A DNA stretch of 64,000 nt from Candidatus Poribacteria bacterium (GTDB lineage: Bacteria; Poribacteria; WGA-4E; JAJDTR01): positions 1 through 64,000 of the forward strand of contig JAJDTR010000029.1 of the NCBI GenBank assembly GCA_022827055.1, written 5' to 3'. Shown here piece after piece: positions 23,313 through 63,932 of the stretch. The translations under genes and the position numbers were made by a program. The number at the start of each line of letters is the position of its first letter. Positions within the stretch are counted from its first letter, which is position 1. The notes beneath the pieces are model-generated. The model was given only the letters and a program-made list of their open reading frames with translations. It ran no database searches and had not been told where the DNA came from.

Positions 23313-24491
23313 TCAGCAAAACCCTGCCGTGGCTATTCGTGCCGCGATAAACCCTTCAAGCGCTTTCTCCAACTCTTCACGCGTGTGGCTTGCCGTCGGC
23401 GTAATTCGCAGGCGGCTCGTGCCGTCTGGCACTGTCGGAGGGCGGATGGCAGGGGCAAAAACGCCTTTGCTTAACAACGCATCCGCAAATTGTGTGGTCG
23501 TTTTCGCCTCCCCGAGGATTAGCGGGAGGATGTGCGTCTCGTTAGGAAGCAGTTGAAATCCGGCTTCCGATAATCGGGTTCTGAGGCTGTGGACATTTGC
23601 GAACAACCGGTAGCGAAATTCGGGATTAGAGCGGATTATATCAATCGCGGTTGACGCCGCCGCCAATGTGCCGGGCGGCAGAGCCGTGGTGAAAATGAAA
23701 CCGCGTGCCCGGTTTATCAGTAAATCGATGAGGGATTTACTCCCGGCCACAAATGCCCCCACACCTCCCACCGCCTTGCTCAACGCACCGATCTGGATAA
23801 TTCCGCGATCTGCCACCCCCAAGTAATCCACCACGCCGCCGCCAGATTGTCCCAGTATCCCGAACCCGTGTACGTCATCCACTATTAACATGGCGTCATA
23901 CGTCTCGGCTATCTCGCAGATTTCGGCGAGAGGCGGAAAGTCGCCATCCATACTGAATACTCCGTCGGTAACAATCAGTCGACGACGGAAGTTCGAAGAA
24001 TCAGCGAGCAGTTCCTTTAGGTGTTCCGGGTCGCAGTGTCTATAAATTCGCTTGGCTGCCCTACTGAGACGGCATCCCTCAATGAGGCTAATGTGGTTGC
24101 GTTCGTCGCTCAGGATGAGATCTCCTTCGCCAACGAGGGGGGGAATAGTGCTAATGTTGGCGAGGTAGCCGGAACTAAAAACCAACGCGGCTTCCGTATT
24201 CAAGATCGCCGCAATATTCGATTCAAGTATTTCATATAGGTGGCTATTGCCCGCGATAAGCCGTGACCCGCTTGCGCCCGTTCCATACTCCAGCGTCGCC
24301 TCGTTGCAAGCCCGGACTACCTCGGGATGAGCGCTCAAGCCGAGATAATTTGTCGAGGCAAGCGAGATTACCTCACGGCCGTCAAGGAGAACACGTCCTG
24401 CCGGGGCACTCATCGTGGGGCGCAGCGAACGCCAGTGTCCAGCCTGCTCCAGTTCGCGTCTTTCGTCTTCCAGCCAGCGATCTGTGTCCAT
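23313..24491 (-). CDS. 8-amino-7-oxononanoate synthase / 2-amino-3-ketobutyrate ligase family (BioF-like)
   Basis: PLP-dependent alpha-oxoamine synthase that condenses an acyl-CoA with an amino acid. Key residues: NYLGLSAHP near residue 48, ring-stacking H133 in ERNHIS, DDVHGFG (205-211) holding the PLP nitrogen, and the Schiff-base K239 in GALSKAVGG. Length (392) is normal. No other biotin genes are nearby, so the substrate could be pimeloyl-CoA/alanine (BioF), glycine/acetyl-CoA (Kbl) or another pair. It lies 8 bp after the GH36-like gene on the same strand and is probably co-transcribed with it. Confidence 0.88.
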   Translation of the reverse strand: MDTDRWLEDERRELEQAGHWRSLRPTMSAPAGRVLLDGREVISLASTNYLGLSAHPEVVRACNEATLEYGTGASGSRLIAGNSHLYEILESNIAAILNTEAALVFSSGYLANISTIPPLVGEGDLILSDERNHISLIEGCRLSRAAKRIYRHCDPEHLKELLADSSNFRRRLIVTDGVFSMDGDFPPLAEICEIAETYDAMLIVDDVHGFGILGQSGGGVVDYLGVADRGIIQIGALSKAVGGVGAFVAGSKSLIDLLINRARGFIFTTALPPGTLAAASTAIDIIRSNPEFRYRLFANVHSLRTRLSEAGFQLLPNETHILPLILGEAKTTTQFADALLSKGVFAPAIRPPTVPDGTSRLRITPTASHTREELEKALEGFIAARIATAGFC

Positions 24492-28337: not shown

Positions 28338-29366
28338 TTACTGCTGCCACCACCTCTTGCCCCTAGGTTTATTCCCAGTCGCCTCTTGGCCGGCAGTGGA
28401 CTCCAACGACTTTAACAAACGCGAAATCTCCTTATCCTTTCCGGATATTGCCAGCGCGTCTTGACACGCCTTGATAGCGCGTTTACCGATCGTTTCATTT
28501 CCCTCCGATTGATAAGCAACCCCGTAAATTTGTGCGACTGCTCGATAATAGTTGGCTGGATCCGCATCTCCTGTCGGGGCATCCCCGGTCTGCTCCAGCG
28601 TCAATAATCCGTCTTCCCATAACTGAGCATTGGCATCACAAATTACCTTGTGACATAGTACGTCTAAGTTTGAACCATCCAACCAATGTGCTTGTTCGTA
28701 GCAGGCGGCGGCTTCGTCATAGACTTCATTGAGGACGTGCAATTTCGCCAATTCGGTGTAGAAAACGCATAAACCGGTGTCTTGAATTGCGTAGCGATTC
28801 GATTGTTCACTCGTGAGCCAGCCTCGTTCCTCCAGAAACTCAATCGCGCTGTTTTTTTCCTCGTCGGTAATAATCACGTCGGTGAGTAGATGTTTTGCCA
28901 CGGCGGCGTTCGGGTAAATTTTTGTGCGGCTCTTCATCAGCGGGTATGCTTGTACGCCTTTATCCATTTGTATCAGTTTCAACCCGGTGGCGACGCGGAA
29001 GAGCGAAACAATTTGATCGCTATTTTTCCGTGCTCTCTCCTCAAAAACCACATGCTGGTTTTTCGCTATCTCTTGATTTAATGCGCTCAACTCATCCTTA
29101 TATTCCGCGACCTCGGGACTGAGTTGGTGCGCCCTGCCAAAAAACCTTTGCGCCGCGAATATTTCATTCCATTCTCGGTAGATTAAACCGAGTCGAAAAT
29201 TGGATTCGGCGAGCACTTCGGCTTCCGAGGCGGCGAGCAAAACAGTATCATAAGCTTGGATCGCACGCCCTAGTTCCCCCTCATCGGTCAGAGATTGGGC
29301 GTGACCGATAAGTTCATCCAGTGAAAATTGCGCGCCGTCCTTGTCAAGAAGGTAATTCTTCTGCAT
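28338..29366 (-). CDS. TPR-like repeat protein
   Basis: 342 residues, no signal peptide or membrane helix. TPR-like helix pairs are visible at the N-terminus (AQSLTDEGELGRAIQAYDTV and NFRLGLIYREWNEIFAAQRF) and in the C-terminal half (YTELAKLHVLNEVYDEAAACYEQA). The middle part (QIVSLFRVATGLKLIQ) is not recognised. Probably a cytoplasmic scaffold or assembly factor. It begins 14 bp after a 72-residue gene on the same strand, so the two likely form an operon. Confidence 0.75.
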   Translation of the reverse strand: MQKNYLLDKDGAQFSLDELIGHAQSLTDEGELGRAIQAYDTVLLAASEAEVLAESNFRLGLIYREWNEIFAAQRFFGRAHQLSPEVAEYKDELSALNQEIAKNQHVVFEERARKNSDQIVSLFRVATGLKLIQMDKGVQAYPLMKSRTKIYPNAAVAKHLLTDVIITDEEKNSAIEFLEERGWLTSEQSNRYAIQDTGLCVFYTELAKLHVLNEVYDEAAACYEQAHWLDGSNLDVLCHKVICDANAQLWEDGLLTLEQTGDAPTGDADPANYYRAVAQIYGVAYQSEGNETIGKRAIKACQDALAISGKDKEISRLLKSLESTAGQEATGNKPRGKRWWQQ

Positions 29367-29380
29367 TTGTCAGTTGAATA

Positions 29381-29599
29381 TTATATCTCGGCAGGATTAT
29401 CAGACACCCAGTCTTGGGTGTTCTCACTAAATCGATCCGCCAATTCGTCCGAGATCGTCTGTTTAATCAGTTCAATGAGATCCTGTCGAAATTTCGCCCA
29501 GTCTTCCCCTCGCCGCGTGAATCGATACTGGCTATCGATCTCGACGTACATGGTGTCCTTTGGATGAGAAAGAGATTCGAAGTAGCGCACAACTTTCAT
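29381..29599 (-). CDS. Small conserved-looking protein, 72 residues
   Basis: ATG 29599 is chosen because GGAGG lies about 5 bases upstream; the frame remains open to 29683 but that extension has no signal. The protein (MKVVRYFESLSHPKDTMYVE, then RFTRRGEDWAKFRQDLIELIKQT) is charged and mostly helical with no membrane segment. I do not recognise the family. It is probably co-transcribed with the TPR-like gene that follows. Confidence 0.65.
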   Translation of the reverse strand: MKVVRYFESLSHPKDTMYVEIDSQYRFTRRGEDWAKFRQDLIELIKQTISDELADRFSENTQDWVSDNPAEI

Positions 29600-29803
29600 A
29601 CCGCCTCCGCGAATTGTTGTAAATTGAAAATTGAAACCTGCTAATGGATGCGATCTTTTAGGTTTTAACCTTGGAGATTCCACGTAGGGAATAATGATCG
29701 TTATTCCCTAAAATCTCAAATTCATTCGCTAACAATTATTGCGTCAAGGAACTGTCTTTCAGTCTCCCAGATTCCAGATCTGTAGATTCGAACAATTCTA
29801 ATC

Positions 29804-30541
29804 TTATTTAGAACTCCACTCGCATATTTGCCAGCCCGATTCACTCGCAATCTGACGCAGCCCTTTTCTCGGATTCACCACAACGGGAGTGCCAACGCAG
29901 CGTAACATCGGCAGGTCGGCGCGGCTATCCCCGTAAGCGAAACTTGCAGGGAGGTCTATCCCGTGCTCGTGAGCGAAGGCTTTCACTACGCGAGCCTTTT
30001 CCTCCTCCCCCAGCGGCGGGGACATCAACTCACCGGTGAACTTCCCATGATGTTCCCGGAGAGACATGGATAACATGTGGTCAGCGCCCAGATAGTCCGC
30101 AAGCGGGTTCATGATGAAATCGAGCGAACCGGTCGCGAGCACGACAAGATCTCCCTTGGCTTTGTGTTCACGAATCTGGTCCGCCGCCGCCGGGAAAATC
30201 TTCGAGCCGAGAAGTGCATCGAATGTGTCTTGAGCCAGTTCTTTCAGCCGTTCCACGTCCATCCCGCGGTAGTTCCGGTAGAAAACTTGATTGAACTTGG
30301 TACGGCTCAGGCTGTCCAATAGGAGATAGTAAGGGATTTTCAGCAGGAAGCCTGCCAGCCAAAACGGGCGTATCAAAGGATGAAGCAACTGCAATCTAAA
30401 CCGCACATAGTAGTGAACAATAGTCGAGTTTACAAGGGTGCCGTCAACGTCGAAGAAGGCTGCCACTTGCAGGTTGACACCATTGCCGTTCGTGCGCACC
30501 ACCGCACCGAGAGATTCCATAGTTATTTTGGGGTTATTCAT
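29804..30541 (-). CDS. HAD-IB family phosphatase (SerB-like)
   Basis: Haloacid-dehalogenase phosphatase of subfamily IB. Motif I is FFDVDGTLVNST with nucleophile D31 and acid/base D33; motif II is VLATGSLDF; motif III/IV is K-rich EEEKARVV followed by AYGDSRADLPML. A hydrophobic stretch in the cap (FWLAGFLLKIPYYLLL) suggests membrane association. HAD-IB enzymes of this type often occur fused or adjacent to PlsC acyltransferases and act on phospholipid intermediates. ATG 30541 overlaps the stop of the giant lipid enzyme by 8 bases, so translation is coupled and a joint pathway is likely. Confidence 0.88.
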   Translation of the reverse strand: MNNPKITMESLGAVVRTNGNGVNLQVAAFFDVDGTLVNSTIVHYYVRFRLQLLHPLIRPFWLAGFLLKIPYYLLLDSLSRTKFNQVFYRNYRGMDVERLKELAQDTFDALLGSKIFPAAADQIREHKAKGDLVVLATGSLDFIMNPLADYLGADHMLSMSLREHHGKFTGELMSPPLGEEEKARVVKAFAHEHGIDLPASFAYGDSRADLPMLRCVGTPVVVNPRKGLRQIASESGWQICEWSSK

Positions 30542-33500
30542 GAGCCGCGTCATGCAACCGTTCAATTCGAGTACGCACTTCGTCGGCAATTCTCTGGTAG
30601 ATTTCTCGCTTACTCGGCTTCATGGCAGAGTCTTGAGGGCGTCCGGGCGCGACCGGTTCACCGAAAACGACGCGAACCTTGCTTTTTCGGGGTAACGACT
30701 TGCCTTTGGGCAATGCTTCATAGGTACCGCTCACGTGCGCGGGCACAACAGGGACACCCGCTTCGTACGCGAGCAAACCGAGCCCGGGTTTGAAGGGTTG
30801 AAGCTCCCCGTTTAAGGAGCGTGTGCCTTCGGGATAGATGAGCAGGTTTTCGTTTCGAAGAAGCGCGTCCTGTGCAACGCGCAAGCTTTGGAGGGAGTTG
30901 TCCGTCCGATCGAACGGCAATGCATTGAGACACTGGCTAACAAACCACGCTTTCATTCGACGGTTGTAGAAGTAATCACTCGCGCTAAGGGGGCGTAAGT
31001 TTTTTGACCCCGCCCCCAGAGCGGTTATGATCGCCGGTGTATCGAGGTGGCTGCTGTGATTTGAAGCGATGATGTACGGTGCCCCGATTGGAATATGCTC
31101 TATCCCGTCGCACTGAAGCGAGAACCGGCGTCGGAAGATCGTCCGAATGCCGAAGCGAATGAGTTTGGCAAAATGGCTCGGATGCAAGGCTAGTTCACTA
31201 TGCTCCGCGGCGACTGAGGAATCGAGGGACGTATCAACGGCATCCGGAGCGATCTGCGAGTCTAACGTGTTGACGACTTCAATCACATCCCCGACCGTAC
31301 GAACCCCGGCAGCAAGCTCGTCCGGCACCTGTTTATCCAGCTTGGATTCAAGCAGCAACAGCAGTTCTACACGGGTCATCGAATCCAATCCGAGATCCGT
31401 GTCTAGCGCGCTGTCCAGACGGATACGATTTGGCGGAACACGAGACAATCGCCCAAGCTCGCCGACAACCTCGGCTTCTCGGCTGCCCGGTTTCCACTCC
31501 CCAACAGCCCTATCTGACGAGGATTCTTCGGCTGAAACAACCGGTTGGGCGGCGTCCGCCACGAATTGTTTGAATAGCATTGCTTTTATGCGGATACGGT
31601 CAATCTCGCCATCGGAAGTCTTGGGTAACTCCTCAACCCAGAAATGCACCTTTTGGAGATTCTGATGTGTGGGTAAGCTGCGGGCGCAAGATTGCAGATG
31701 TTTCTGAATCGACTCTTGGATATCCAACCGAGCGTCATCGTCGGGGCAATTCGGCACAATTACAGTGTGCACTTCCTCGCCGAACGAGTCTGGCGGGTCT
31801 ATTCCAACGACGCAAATCTCGGAGATGTGAGGGCTGTGTCGATATAATTCCTCAAGTTCGACCGGATAGATGTTTTTGCCGGTGCTGGCAATGATGACAT
31901 CCTTTTTGCGTCCTGTAAGAAAGAGGTAGCCGTCATCATCAATGTAGCCGAGATCGCCGGTATAGAGCAGCCCATCTCGCAGGACCTGCCGAGTCGCCTC
32001 CGGATTTCGGTAGTATCCCGCCATGGTGCTCGGACTCTTCGTGACAATTTCGCCAATCCCGTCGGCGTCCGGATCGGAAATCTGGAATTCCACCTCATTT
32101 ACCGGCAGCCCGACGGAACCCGCTTTGCTCCTCCCGGCAGGATTCACGCTTAACACGGGCGCCGTTTCCGTCATGCCGTAGCCTTCAAGGATTGTGAAAC
32201 CATAGCGCTTGAACCCATCGTAAACCTGACGCGGCAAGGCGGCACCGCCGCTTATAAAGATGCGGAGATGCCCTCCCAAGCCGTCTTTGACTTGCTCAAT
32301 CACGGCTGAATCAACCGGCTCGTCTGCGTTAATCGCGGTTTTCAGGATATACCTTTCAATGGCGTCAATCAGTAATTTGTACAAGCGCGGAACCCCGATA
32401 ATGGCCGTCGTTTTCGTTTCCCGCATAGATTCCAAGATTGCGGTTGGTTTGAATGTGTTGATGTAGGTGACACTGGCGCCGCCGTAGATAGCCATCAGGA
32501 AACTACACGAGAACCCAAGGGCGTGATACAGCGGTAGAATGGCTAGGACTCGATCTGTTTCCGCTGGGGGCAGCACCTGTGCGACAGCGTGGAGATTAGC
32601 CATAAACCCGTTATGAGACAGCATCGCGCCTCTCGGGTCTACGGTCGTACCCATCGTAAATATGATGGAGGCCGTTGCCTCCGGCTGGACTTTTACATTC
32701 GGAAAATCAGCAGGAATCTCATCAATCGGAGACACATCCTCTTCGGCACCCGATGGTGTGCAAAGCTGATTCAGATTCAATACGTCCAGCTTCTCCCTTT
32801 CGTCGGAGATAGAGTGCAACTGTTCAAAAAGGGATTCGGACGCGAGAACCGCTTTTGCCTCGGTAAAGTCGGCAAGCGCTATCACTTCGACTCTAGCCGT
32901 CTGCGGATCGATAGGCACAACGATGGCGCCAATTTGGATAGCGGCTAGGTAGGTAATTCCCCACTCGGGTTGATTTTCGGAAATGAGAATCACCTTATCG
33001 TCTTTGCGATAGCCGCGTTCCCAAAAGGTAAACGCAATCTCTCGCGATAAATCATAAAGTTGACGGTAGGAATACCGTACCCATTCCCCGCCTCGTTCAA
33101 TCTGCAAGGCTGTATTTGCCGAATAGACCTCGGCCTGCCGCTCAACGAGATCCAAAATCGTTTGACAGTTCCGTATTGATCCCTTGTTGCACGGATCGGC
33201 GTCGTCGCGTACGGCGTTTGAACGCTCGATTTCTTTGAGCATTTTCACCGACGGATCAGCGTCCATTTTGAGAATGAACCGCTTAATTCCCGGTATATGG
33301 ACATTCTGAAGATAGTGTTGCCAATCGAACTTTGAAATATTAAGGTCAAAACGACGCTGATCGGCTGCCGTTAACGATGCGGATAGCTGTCCAATCTGGG
33401 TGGTTTCAAATTCAAAGCTAATCCGCGTATACGGACCGTAGATGCGAATGTAATACTGAAGACCTTCTAATGCATTTTGCATCACGGCGATACGACGGTT

Positions 33501-34859
33501 TCGCTGTCTCGCCCATCTTAGCGGGATCAAATCAAGAAGTCGACTCGCCGCTCTGAGCGCTCCCAACTTGCGTGACAATTTGCCCTGAAATTCCCCAAGA
33601 CCGGGATACTTCCATACCGGTGGGGGAATGGGCTTTCCACTATCCAGCATCGGATACTTGATAAAGTGGTCGTGAGCGCCGTCCACTATGTTTCGGAAAT
33701 ACAGTGGGTTTTGGGAGCCGGTCGCCACATGGTAGACCTCAATTCCGCGTCTGTAATAGGTCTGTTTTGCCGCGATTAAAATGGCGTTCACTACAAAGTC
33801 CACGGGGATGATATCAAGGATAATATCCGGATCCGCAGGAAAATCGGGCAGGCGCCCCTTCCCAAAACCAACGATAAGCGGATCCGCCATGCGTAACCCA
33901 TCAAGCCAACCCGGCCGTGGGTCCGCTAGGCTGCTCTCAATTATCGAAGGGCGAATGATTGCAACCGGCAAATCGCCCCGCGTCTTGGCGACCATCTGTT
34001 CGCCTAGCGCTTTCATGTAGGTGTACGTGTCATTCCAGCCTCGTGACTGTGCTCGTTTCAGCCCTTCATCGACCAAGCGCTGTTCAATCCACTTCTTGCG
34101 AATGGTATCATACTGACGACGATAACCGTCGCTGTCTTCCCGCTCTTCTCCTACCTGTTCCAAAGCCTCGCGTCGAAATTGGTCGCTTCGAGCGGATTCA
34201 CCCGCCTCGGTTCTTATTTTTTCCGCAATTTGTTGGACATCTTCAATTTCTTCCTCAAGCGAGCGAGGGATTCTTTCTCCGGTCTCTTCGGCAATCTTTT
34301 GGGCAGAAACTTCGTATGGTGGGTGTAATTCCTCACTGATCCTCCCTGGCGTTGTTCCGCACACATAGGCGGTCGAAACGTGAAGAAGTACGGCGTCATT
34401 GCAGCCTCGGACGAATTTAACAGCCTGTTTTGCGCCAATTACATTGCTATGCAATGACATATCCATCGGCGGATCGAAGTTCACCAATCCACCGCTGTTT
34501 ATGAAGATTTGGACTTCGTCTTGCAGCTCTTTGTACCGGGCATCAGACATCCCAAGCCGTTCGTAGGTCAAGTCGCCATCTACGGCATGCACCTTTTCGC
34601 GAATCCAGCTATCGAACCGGTCTCCATGAATCTGTTTAAGTTTTGCAAAAACGCTTGACGTGAAGAACTCGTCCTCTAGTCGATCAGCGGCGGAGCTCAC
34701 CTTGCCGTTTGGGTCGGTTCGACTGCGAACGAGCAAGTAGATCCGTTTTATATCCGGCAAATCCGTGAGAATCTTGGCGACCACCGGCTTGCCCAGGAAG
34801 CCCGTAGCACCCGTAATCAGCACAGTTTTGTTTTGAAAAAAATCGGAGATGGTGTTCAA
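30534..34859 (-). CDS. Four-domain lipid enzyme: acyl reductase, AMP-dependent ligase, acyl carrier, PlsC acyltransferase
   Basis: 1441 residues. Residues 1-480: NAD(P)-binding thioester/fatty acyl-CoA reductase (male-sterility type) with GATGFLG at 17-23 and Y279-x3-K283. About 560-1090: AMP-dependent acyl ligase with YGMTETAP and YTGDLGYIDDDGYLFLTGR; its phosphate loop at 734-744 is FTMGTTVDPRG, not the usual YTSGTTGxPKG. About 1120-1190: phosphopantetheine carrier with S1160 in LGLDSM. About 1230-1430: PlsC-type acyltransferase with NHSSHLD (1267-1273) and YPEGTRS. Carboxylic acid reductases share the modules but in the order ligase-carrier-reductase. The layout resembles, from memory, the myxobacterial ether-lipid protein ElbD. 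A HAD phosphatase is translationally coupled. Probably makes a fatty alcohol- or ether-type lipid; product unproven. Confidence 0.88.
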   Translation of the reverse strand: MNTISDFFQNKTVLITGATGFLGKPVVAKILTDLPDIKRIYLLVRSRTDPNGKVSSAADRLEDEFFTSSVFAKLKQIHGDRFDSWIREKVHAVDGDLTYERLGMSDARYKELQDEVQIFINSGGLVNFDPPMDMSLHSNVIGAKQAVKFVRGCNDAVLLHVSTAYVCGTTPGRISEELHPPYEVSAQKIAEETGERIPRSLEEEIEDVQQIAEKIRTEAGESARSDQFRREALEQVGEEREDSDGYRRQYDTIRKKWIEQRLVDEGLKRAQSRGWNDTYTYMKALGEQMVAKTRGDLPVAIIRPSIIESSLADPRPGWLDGLRMADPLIVGFGKGRLPDFPADPDIILDIIPVDFVVNAILIAAKQTYYRRGIEVYHVATGSQNPLYFRNIVDGAHDHFIKYPMLDSGKPIPPPVWKYPGLGEFQGKLSRKLGALRAASRLLDLIPLRWARQRNRRIAVMQNALEGLQYYIRIYGPYTRISFEFETTQIGQLSASLTAADQRRFDLNISKFDWQHYLQNVHIPGIKRFILKMDADPSVKMLKEIERSNAVRDDADPCNKGSIRNCQTILDLVERQAEVYSANTALQIERGGEWVRYSYRQLYDLSREIAFTFWERGYRKDDKVILISENQPEWGITYLAAIQIGAIVVPIDPQTARVEVIALADFTEAKAVLASESLFEQLHSISDEREKLDVLNLNQLCTPSGAEEDVSPIDEIPADFPNVKVQPEATASIIFTMGTTVDPRGAMLSHNGFMANLHAVAQVLPPAETDRVLAILPLYHALGFSCSFLMAIYGGASVTYINTFKPTAILESMRETKTTAIIGVPRLYKLLIDAIERYILKTAINADEPVDSAVIEQVKDGLGGHLRIFISGGAALPRQVYDGFKRYGFTILEGYGMTETAPVLSVNPAGRSKAGSVGLPVNEVEFQISDPDADGIGEIVTKSPSTMAGYYRNPEATRQVLRDGLLYTGDLGYIDDDGYLFLTGRKKDVIIASTGKNIYPVELEELYRHSPHISEICVVGIDPPDSFGEEVHTVIVPNCPDDDARLDIQESIQKHLQSCARSLPTHQNLQKVHFWVEELPKTSDGEIDRIRIKAMLFKQFVADAAQPVVSAEESSSDRAVGEWKPGSREAEVVGELGRLSRVPPNRIRLDSALDTDLGLDSMTRVELLLLLESKLDKQVPDELAAGVRTVGDVIEVVNTLDSQIAPDAVDTSLDSSVAAEHSELALHPSHFAKLIRFGIRTIFRRRFSLQCDGIEHIPIGAPYIIASNHSSHLDTPAIITALGAGSKNLRPLSASDYFYNRRMKAWFVSQCLNALPFDRTDNSLQSLRVAQDALLRNENLLIYPEGTRSLNGELQPFKPGLGLLAYEAGVPVVPAHVSGTYEALPKGKSLPRKSKVRVVFGEPVAPGRPQDSAMKPSKREIYQRIADEVRTRIERLHDAAHE

Positions 34860-62384: not shown

Positions 62385-63932
62385 TTATTGGACGTTCACA
62401 TAAATAAACGGCGGCATCGTCAGCGCCACAACATCATCTTCACCAGATATTTCCCTAGCCATACCAAGGGCGTCCTTCAAATTGCGAGCCCAATCCACGC
62501 CTAGTCGCTTGGCAACTCTGTCATCTTTGGGGCCAACGAGGACAATCTTGGACAGATACTTCAACGCATAGGTTGCCCAGTACCAAACCGTAAATGGATG
62601 AAACCCGTGATACGCAAATTTGTTGCGGTAACAGTCGATCAGGAAGGGGTCGCGGGCGTATTTCTCTTGAAAATTGTTCCGCATTTCAAACGGGTCGGTA
62701 GTTTCGCTGAGCACCTCTTCGTAGAATTGCCGGTAAGGCACATGATACTCGTCGTGGAAGATTTCGAACGTCGGATTCATGATTATCACGACACCACCTT
62801 CCTTGATAAGCGGCTTGTTGTAAAACCAGTTGAAGATATAGCCGAGGATGTCGCTGACGACCAAGATTGGGTTGATTCGCGCGCCGATGGCGTAGGGTGT
62901 CAAGTCGGGAAGGCCAAAAACCAATGTGCTGTATTGTCTCGGGACATCAATCATTAACTGGTCTTTCATGACTTGCAGCGTTTTCGGGTGTACGCCGTCA
63001 ATTGACCCGACGTTAATCTCAACGGGGTCATAATCGGTGCGAATACTCTTGAAAATCTTCGACCTCAATCCCTCCGGCAGCATTGACATCGTTCCCGGCG
63101 TGCAGGTTTTGATAACCCGCTCGAAAAGGTTGCATCGCTCGTTCGGCTTACCCAGATAGCGCAGGTGTAAGGGGTAAATGGCGTCATTCATTGCGGCTTC
63201 CAGCACCATAATCTTGCTGTTCCCTTCAATGACGCGGCTCATTCGCTCAATGCTATCGTGCATATTCGAGTGCTCCGGCTGCATGACGTGCGGGTTCTCC
63301 GCCGTCATGTGCGGCGAATGGTGCGGCGCGATTGAATTGTAGGTGCCCATTCCCACGGCAACCGACTTGTGCCCGCCGTTGAGCGGAATCTGAATGGTAT
63401 CCACATAGATGACCAAGTCGCTCTCTACAACGGCGCGGTCCGTTTCAACGATCTCATCGTGCTCCGTTTTGCCCAAACTGACGATGTTGTCGGGGTCTTC
63501 AGCGTCGTAATTTCTCAATTGATGAGGGAAAAACTCGTTCATGATGTTTTTGCCCAGCATATACGCCAACTCGGGCGTCTTCATCTTGCGATGCAGCCCT
63601 CCCGCACACACGAGTTGGATGTTCACCTTCTCGGCGCCGTAGGAGTAGAGCATGGAAAGCAGGGGTTCAATCATGACTTGTCGCAGGTCGGGCTTTTTCG
63701 TCATCGGAAACGGCTGGCAATTGTTGTCAAAAGCGATTAAGATCTTGGTGTTTCCATCAACGAGTTCGCGCAACGGCGGCATCCCCAACGGATTTTCAAA
63801 GGCTTTCTTCACCTGGGCTGGAATGTCGGCGCGTTTGATGCCGGCGATTGGCGGTTTCGCATAGTAAATCTGTGAGTTATCAGGCAATTCCGCGTTGATT
63901 AGGTGATTGCCAAAATAGGTCAAGTATTTCAT
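62385..63932 (-). CDS. LarA-like protein (lactate racemase domain, DUF2088 family)
   Basis: 515 residues. LarA uses a nickel-pincer nucleotide to racemise lactate; many paralogues act on other 2-hydroxyacids. The N-terminal domain shows CAGGLHRKMKTPEL (the GxHR motif), IVSLGKTEHDEIV, and NGGHKSVAVGMG, the place of the lysine and second histidine of LarA, then HHSPHM. The C-terminal domain is longer than in LarA and includes an unusual FEIFHDEYHVPYRQFYEE segment. GGAGG precedes the ATG by about 8 bases. The cofactor-synthesis genes larB, larC and larE are not in the window. Substrate unknown. Confidence 0.85.
   Translation of the reverse strand: MKYLTYFGNHLINAELPDNSQIYYAKPPIAGIKRADIPAQVKKAFENPLGMPPLRELVDGNTKILIAFDNNCQPFPMTKKPDLRQVMIEPLLSMLYSYGAEKVNIQLVCAGGLHRKMKTPELAYMLGKNIMNEFFPHQLRNYDAEDPDNIVSLGKTEHDEIVETDRAVVESDLVIYVDTIQIPLNGGHKSVAVGMGTYNSIAPHHSPHMTAENPHVMQPEHSNMHDSIERMSRVIEGNSKIMVLEAAMNDAIYPLHLRYLGKPNERCNLFERVIKTCTPGTMSMLPEGLRSKIFKSIRTDYDPVEINVGSIDGVHPKTLQVMKDQLMIDVPRQYSTLVFGLPDLTPYAIGARINPILVVSDILGYIFNWFYNKPLIKEGGVVIIMNPTFEIFHDEYHVPYRQFYEEVLSETTDPFEMRNNFQEKYARDPFLIDCYRNKFAYHGFHPFTVWYWATYALKYLSKIVLVGPKDDRVAKRLGVDWARNLKDALGMAREISGEDDVVALTMPPFIYVNVQ

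Follow-up and report, generated by a model that had tools for sequence, protein, structure and literature searches.

The elbD-type gene of the Candidatus Poribacteria bacterium studied here and the HAD phosphatase gene that overlaps it are relatives of the myxobacterial ether-lipid gene elbD and its phosphatase partner, as shown by domain order, gene coupling, and conservation. Both genes lie in the window, the whole stretch of 64,000 nucleotides analyzed (contig JAJDTR010000029.1, assembly GCA_022827055.1; Table 1). Judged from sequence, the pair would make ether lipids with a ligase domain that does not activate fatty acids and would be fed ready-made acyl groups; the probability of this reading as a whole is put at about 0.64.

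Table 1. Features of the elbD-HAD locus, in window positions
Feature	Position	Strand	Details	Basis
elbD-type gene (P0001)	30534..34859	minus	1441 aa, TTG start; full-length homologues across Candidatus Poribacteria	
Fatty acyl (thioester) reductase domain, NAD_binding_4	33780..34817	minus	residues 15-360 (E 2.9e-65); predicted catalytic YTYMK, 279-283	Pfam, PDB match
FAR_C ("Sterile") domain	33267..33485	minus	residues 459-531 (E 1.4e-11)	Pfam
AMP-ligase (ANL) fold	31608..33143	minus	residues 573-1084; AMP-binding 573-950 (E 2.9e-69), AMP-binding_C 1001-1084 (E 9e-7)	Pfam; model pLDDT 88.6
Degenerate A3 P-loop, FTMGTTVDPRG	32628..32660	minus	residues 734-744; Ser to Met736, Gly to Val740	alignment
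A10 catalytic Lys position	31605..31607	minus	here Glu1085 (LPKTSDGEIDR)	alignment
Acyl/peptidyl carrier domain, PP-binding	31275..31469	minus	residues 1131-1195 (E 8e-8); Ser1160 in GLDSM	Pfam
PlsC-type acyltransferase	30732..31115	minus	residues 1249-1376 (E 9.7e-21); NHSSHLD and PEGTRS	Pfam
HAD-IB phosphatase gene	29804..30541	minus	ORF opens at 30589; likely ATG at 30541	PF12710, TIGR01490
Small ORF between HAD and TPR genes	29381..29683	minus	up to 100 aa; downstream of elbD in 11 loci	
TPR-repeat protein after HAD gene	28338..29366	minus	follows the elbD-HAD pair in 30 Poribacteria loci	

A single polypeptide carries, in this order, the Pfam domains NAD_binding_4, Sterile/FAR_C, AMP-binding, AMP-binding_C, PP-binding, and Acyltransferase, and its TTG lines up with the start methionine of homologues in the alignment. 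An earlier note had proposed a reductase-ligase-carrier-acyltransferase fusion coupled to a HAD phosphatase and had likened it to ElbD; the domain search bears out the order and the pairing, and both the domain order and the HAD partner match those published for ElbD and ElbB (PMC9131029). The window genome is 92% complete (5.57 Mb in 171 contigs), and the genomes behind the comparisons are metagenome-assembled and incomplete. The fusion is no assembly accident, since a genus mate, in a record titled Candidatus Poribacteria, has an ElbD 90% identical along the whole protein, and 76 of the 83 genomes of the class encode ElbD, as a single ORF or as two adjacent ORFs.

In M. xanthus, ElbD is described as a FAR1-like reductase followed by ACS, ACP, and an AGPAT-like acyltransferase (Lorenzen 2014, via PMC9131029). 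This is the order of the window protein, and the two are likened by published architecture. According to PMC9131029, the M. xanthus operon comprises elbA-elbE, with elbB the HAD-family gene; disruption of elbD strongly lowers ether lipids; and the ACP and ACS activities of ElbD were confirmed in vitro, while the reductase and acyltransferase activities were not. The window operon also has a HAD-family gene, which differs from that of M. xanthus in lying directly downstream of elbD and overlapping it. Neither elbC nor elbE was identified: Pfam gave no NAD-dependent epimerase/dehydratase (elbE) among the window genes flanking elbD, and apart from the HAD gene no elb gene was recognized beside it. 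Myxobacterial elbD and elbE do not always lie with elbB and elbC (PMC9131029). The genus Pontiella has elbD homologues yet gave no ether lipids in culture (PMC11868695), which counts against the ether-lipid reading.

The ElbD-HAD locus itself is of a known kind, already reported for Poribacteria, for which PMC9426513 cites Lorenzen 2014 on elbD homologues. Loureiro 2022 (PMC9426513) describes elbD homologues as widespread sponge gene cluster families, classed as NRPS-like. The core gene of these elbD-like, VEPE-related families of sponge symbionts likewise encodes reductase, ACS, thiolation, and acyltransferase domains; the families are assigned to Acidobacteriota and Poribacteria, and hydrolases and dehydratases flank the core gene. 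The degeneration of the ligase, the HAD fusion elsewhere, and the lack of a detectable AGPS may be the new parts; the sections of PMC9426513 available to us say nothing of lost ligase motifs, of HAD fusions outside Poribacteria, or of a search for AGPS. The NRPS-like class assigned in the sponge metagenomes would fit a specialized-metabolite pathway with a lipid amide or ester as product, but such a pathway is very improbable: condensation and thioesterase domains are absent by Pfam, the HAD and TPR genes are the only ones seen to be conserved alongside elbD, and a protein encoded in nearly all genomes of the class looks like a part of core lipid metabolism. The small ORF between the HAD and TPR genes has no Pfam match. 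Elsewhere in the window are a BioF/serine-palmitoyltransferase-like PLP enzyme, above the BioF cut-off (23313-24491, minus strand), and a protein with a lactate racemase N-terminal domain (62385-63932, minus strand), relatives of which lie near elbD in the Poribacteria loci L053, L054, and L060, possibly by chance.

In the ligase domain of the window ElbD, intact acyl-CoA synthetase motifs are not found: A3 and A10 are degenerate, whereas M. xanthus ElbD showed ACS activity in vitro (PMC9131029). Within the Poribacteria group to which the window protein belongs (62 sequences), the A3 serine is replaced by methionine in 59 and the A3 glycine by valine in 60. The A10 lysine gives way to at least eight other residue types, while the flanking leucine and arginine are invariant. 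The A8 arginine is histidine in 50 of the 62, the window ElbD being among those that still have arginine; A5 (YG.TE), A7 (TGD), and the GKN..P loop of A8 do not vary among the 62. Other ANL ligases from the window genome and from the genus mate have canonical motifs, so sequencing error or general drift is an unlikely cause. The A10 lysine has an established catalytic role in the ANL family, and by that role the loss of A3 and A10 would be expected to abolish adenylation; the degenerate domain may be active by another route.

In a tree computed without the A3 and A10 columns, all 39 rows lacking the A3 glycine fall in one ElbD clade (starred), and the degenerate motifs run through this entire clade, whose members share the ElbD architecture; the tree requires at least four changes of state at the A10 lysine. 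A second ElbD clade and the ACS-ACP-AT paralogues of other genomes have the A10 lysine and the A3 serine in 22 of 22 cases; these paralogues are arranged like ElbD from the ligase through the carrier to the acyltransferase but lack the reductase. Two further full-length ElbD clades (L153-L171), from genomes related to a Deltaproteobacteria record, were seen, one with a canonical and one with a degenerate ligase.

An ordinary ElbD, with a working ligase that tolerates the A3 and A10 changes and lets the protein act on fatty acids from activation and loading through reduction to transfer, would explain why the modeled domain keeps the ANL fold, with CoA ligases as its structural PDB neighbors, and why the A5, A7, and A8 loops are intact. 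It would also agree with the ACS activity of the M. xanthus protein (PMC9131029) and with the A10 lysine kept by three members of the 62-sequence Poribacteria group and by two of the four f7 Poribacteria sequences. We nevertheless consider it unlikely: A10 varies freely between invariant neighbors, A3 is altered in parallel, and both motifs are intact in other ligases from this genome.

The remaining catalytic residues of the protein are conserved in the same Poribacteria sequences that have a degenerate ligase. The carrier serine is present in 62 of 62, as are the histidine, aspartate, glutamate, and arginine of the acyltransferase HX4D and EGTR motifs, while the YxxxK of the reductase and most of its Rossmann motif (GxT..FxG) are kept in all 61 aligned. 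Among solved structures, the reductase comes closest to 7eoz (E 9.1e-75), a fatty acyl-CoA reductase, while PDB matches to carboxylic acid reductases rank far lower and fall in the ligase region. Given the FAR_C domain, an alcohol-forming type is plausible, with an aldehyde product also possible. Carboxylic acid reductases (CARs) have the order ligase-carrier-reductase and no acyltransferase. They share the ligase, carrier, and reductase domains with the window ElbD, but their C-terminal reductase is not found here: the reductase is N-terminal and the acyltransferase C-terminal, in agreement with the earlier suggestion that the order is unlike that of CARs. CAR-type and NRPS readings both failed on domain order.

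Most ElbD proteins of the class are one ORF, while several consist of a reductase beside a ligase-carrier-acyltransferase ORF. There are at least three split designs (L084, L095, L120, and L133; L125, L126, L128, L129, and L140; L137, L141, L144, and L145), so that the reductase is probably able to work as a separate protein, in trans. The first design has a single in-frame TAG between reductase and ligase; recoding was considered and rejected, since a Shine-Dalgarno-like GGAGG before the stop and a new ATG after it make a simple gene split likelier.

The HAD gene is coupled to elbD. Its likely start gives an 8-bp overlap with the ElbD stop (ATGAATAA), and the ORF matches PF12710 (E 3.7e-40) and TIGR01490 (HAD-IB; 145.9 bits against a curated cut-off of 98.3), with the motif residues Asp, Thr/Ser, Lys, and Asp conserved in 25 homologues. 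Of the 64 Poribacteria loci with enough flank, 62 have the gene directly downstream of elbD and on its strand, and both exceptions come from one family. The same arrangement was seen in one locus each from records titled Verrucomicrobia, Phycisphaerales, and Planctomycetota, and once in a further clade. In six Latescibacterota/Gemmatimonadetes records (L132, L134, L136, L142, L143, and L147), one protein of about 1200 aa combines the reductase, an AMP-binding domain with the P-loop FTRGMAAESHG, and a C-terminal HAD (about 46% identical). The ligase of each of the six ends after A7 in the alignment, and in the one fusion checked by Pfam (L188, from the same genome as L132) the AMP_C, carrier, and acyltransferase domains are absent. 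These observations argue that reductase and phosphatase form one functional core and that the full ligase is dispensable. The HAD model (pLDDT 87.4) resembles an uncharacterized Bordetella protein and phosphoserine phosphatases; the cap contains a hydrophobic helix (residues 76-94), as would suit an enzyme acting on a lipid.

These features suggest a scheme for the preferred reading, that of an ether-lipid pair with a non-activating ligase. Acyl groups would be delivered ready-made as acyl-ACP or acyl-CoA and held on the carrier domain; the reductase module would convert a fatty acyl thioester to a fatty alcohol or aldehyde; the PlsC-type domain would transfer an acyl group to a backbone of glycerol phosphate; and the HAD enzyme would take a phosphate off a lipid intermediate, with alkyl-acyl glycerolipids as the predicted products. 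The ligase domain, which has probably stopped activating free fatty acids but retains its fold together with the A5, A7, and A8 loops, may serve as a scaffold or thioester-handling module. In the scheme first put forward for this locus, reduction, carriage, transfer, and dephosphorylation thus stand as inference, while the activation of a fatty acid by the same protein, which was also part of it, is unlikely in view of the degenerate A3 and A10.

That scheme had left a choice between ether and wax-type lipids, and the ElbD architecture favors the former. A route to fatty alcohols and diacylglycerol-like neutral lipids or waxes in place of ether lipids would suit a FAR-type reductase, and a HAD phosphatase beside an acyltransferase would fit the dephosphorylation of phosphatidate. 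It is nonetheless improbable, more so than a working ligase, since the characterized protein of ElbD architecture acts in ether lipids (PMC9131029); the wax reading also went unsupported in a search for wax synthase/DGAT (PF03007), which gave nothing in 81 genomes, an absence weakly shown because the control set was silent too.

As to the ether bond, a PF02913 search of the window genome found no AGPS-like protein; with the genome 92% complete, this speaks only softly against a route through AGPS. The three PF02913 proteins present are a glycolate-oxidase-like protein, its GlcE-like neighbor, and a 975-aa fused dehydrogenase; for two of the three, comparison with solved structures scores glycolate oxidase far above AGPS chains. 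In M. xanthus, disruption of the AGPS homologue lowers ether lipids only slightly (PMC9131029). A bolder proposal, which we hold only tentatively and think rather doubtful, is that in the ElbD clade that includes the poribacterial proteins the ligase is now non-adenylating and works on acyl-ACP or acyl-CoA, and that with the HAD enzyme the protein makes ether lipids without AGPS, the core containing or recruiting an as yet undescribed ether-forming step. Literature on sponge alkylglycerols and on ANL pseudoenzymes yielded nothing useful.

The Ger/PlsA glycerol ester reductases are another bacterial route to alkyl ethers, by proteins unrelated to ElbD (BcrAD_BadFG, DUF2229). PF09989 proteins of 1010-1180 aa with BcrAD_BadFG and DUF2229 (L183, from the window genome, and L184, L185, L186, and L187) occur in the ElbD-less families f5, f6, and f8 and in three ElbD-positive genomes, and are possibly an alternative lipid route. 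No claim is made for a Ger/PlsA-like role: the HGD-D domain is absent from both of the proteins tested, none reaches the length of Ger, and the number of independent lineages involved is small.

The findings bear on how ElbD makes ether lipids, from the choice and sequence of active domains to the site of ether-bond formation, and they are relevant to the origin of the ether lipids found in sponges, which is still undescribed. That the HAD domain is fused to the reductase in other phyla points to the phosphatase as a part of the core. If a whole clade has dropped the adenylation residues but kept the reductase, carrier, and acyltransferase, then fatty-acid activation would be dispensable, and the chemistry of ElbD would narrow to acyl thioesters, their reduction, and acyl transfer.
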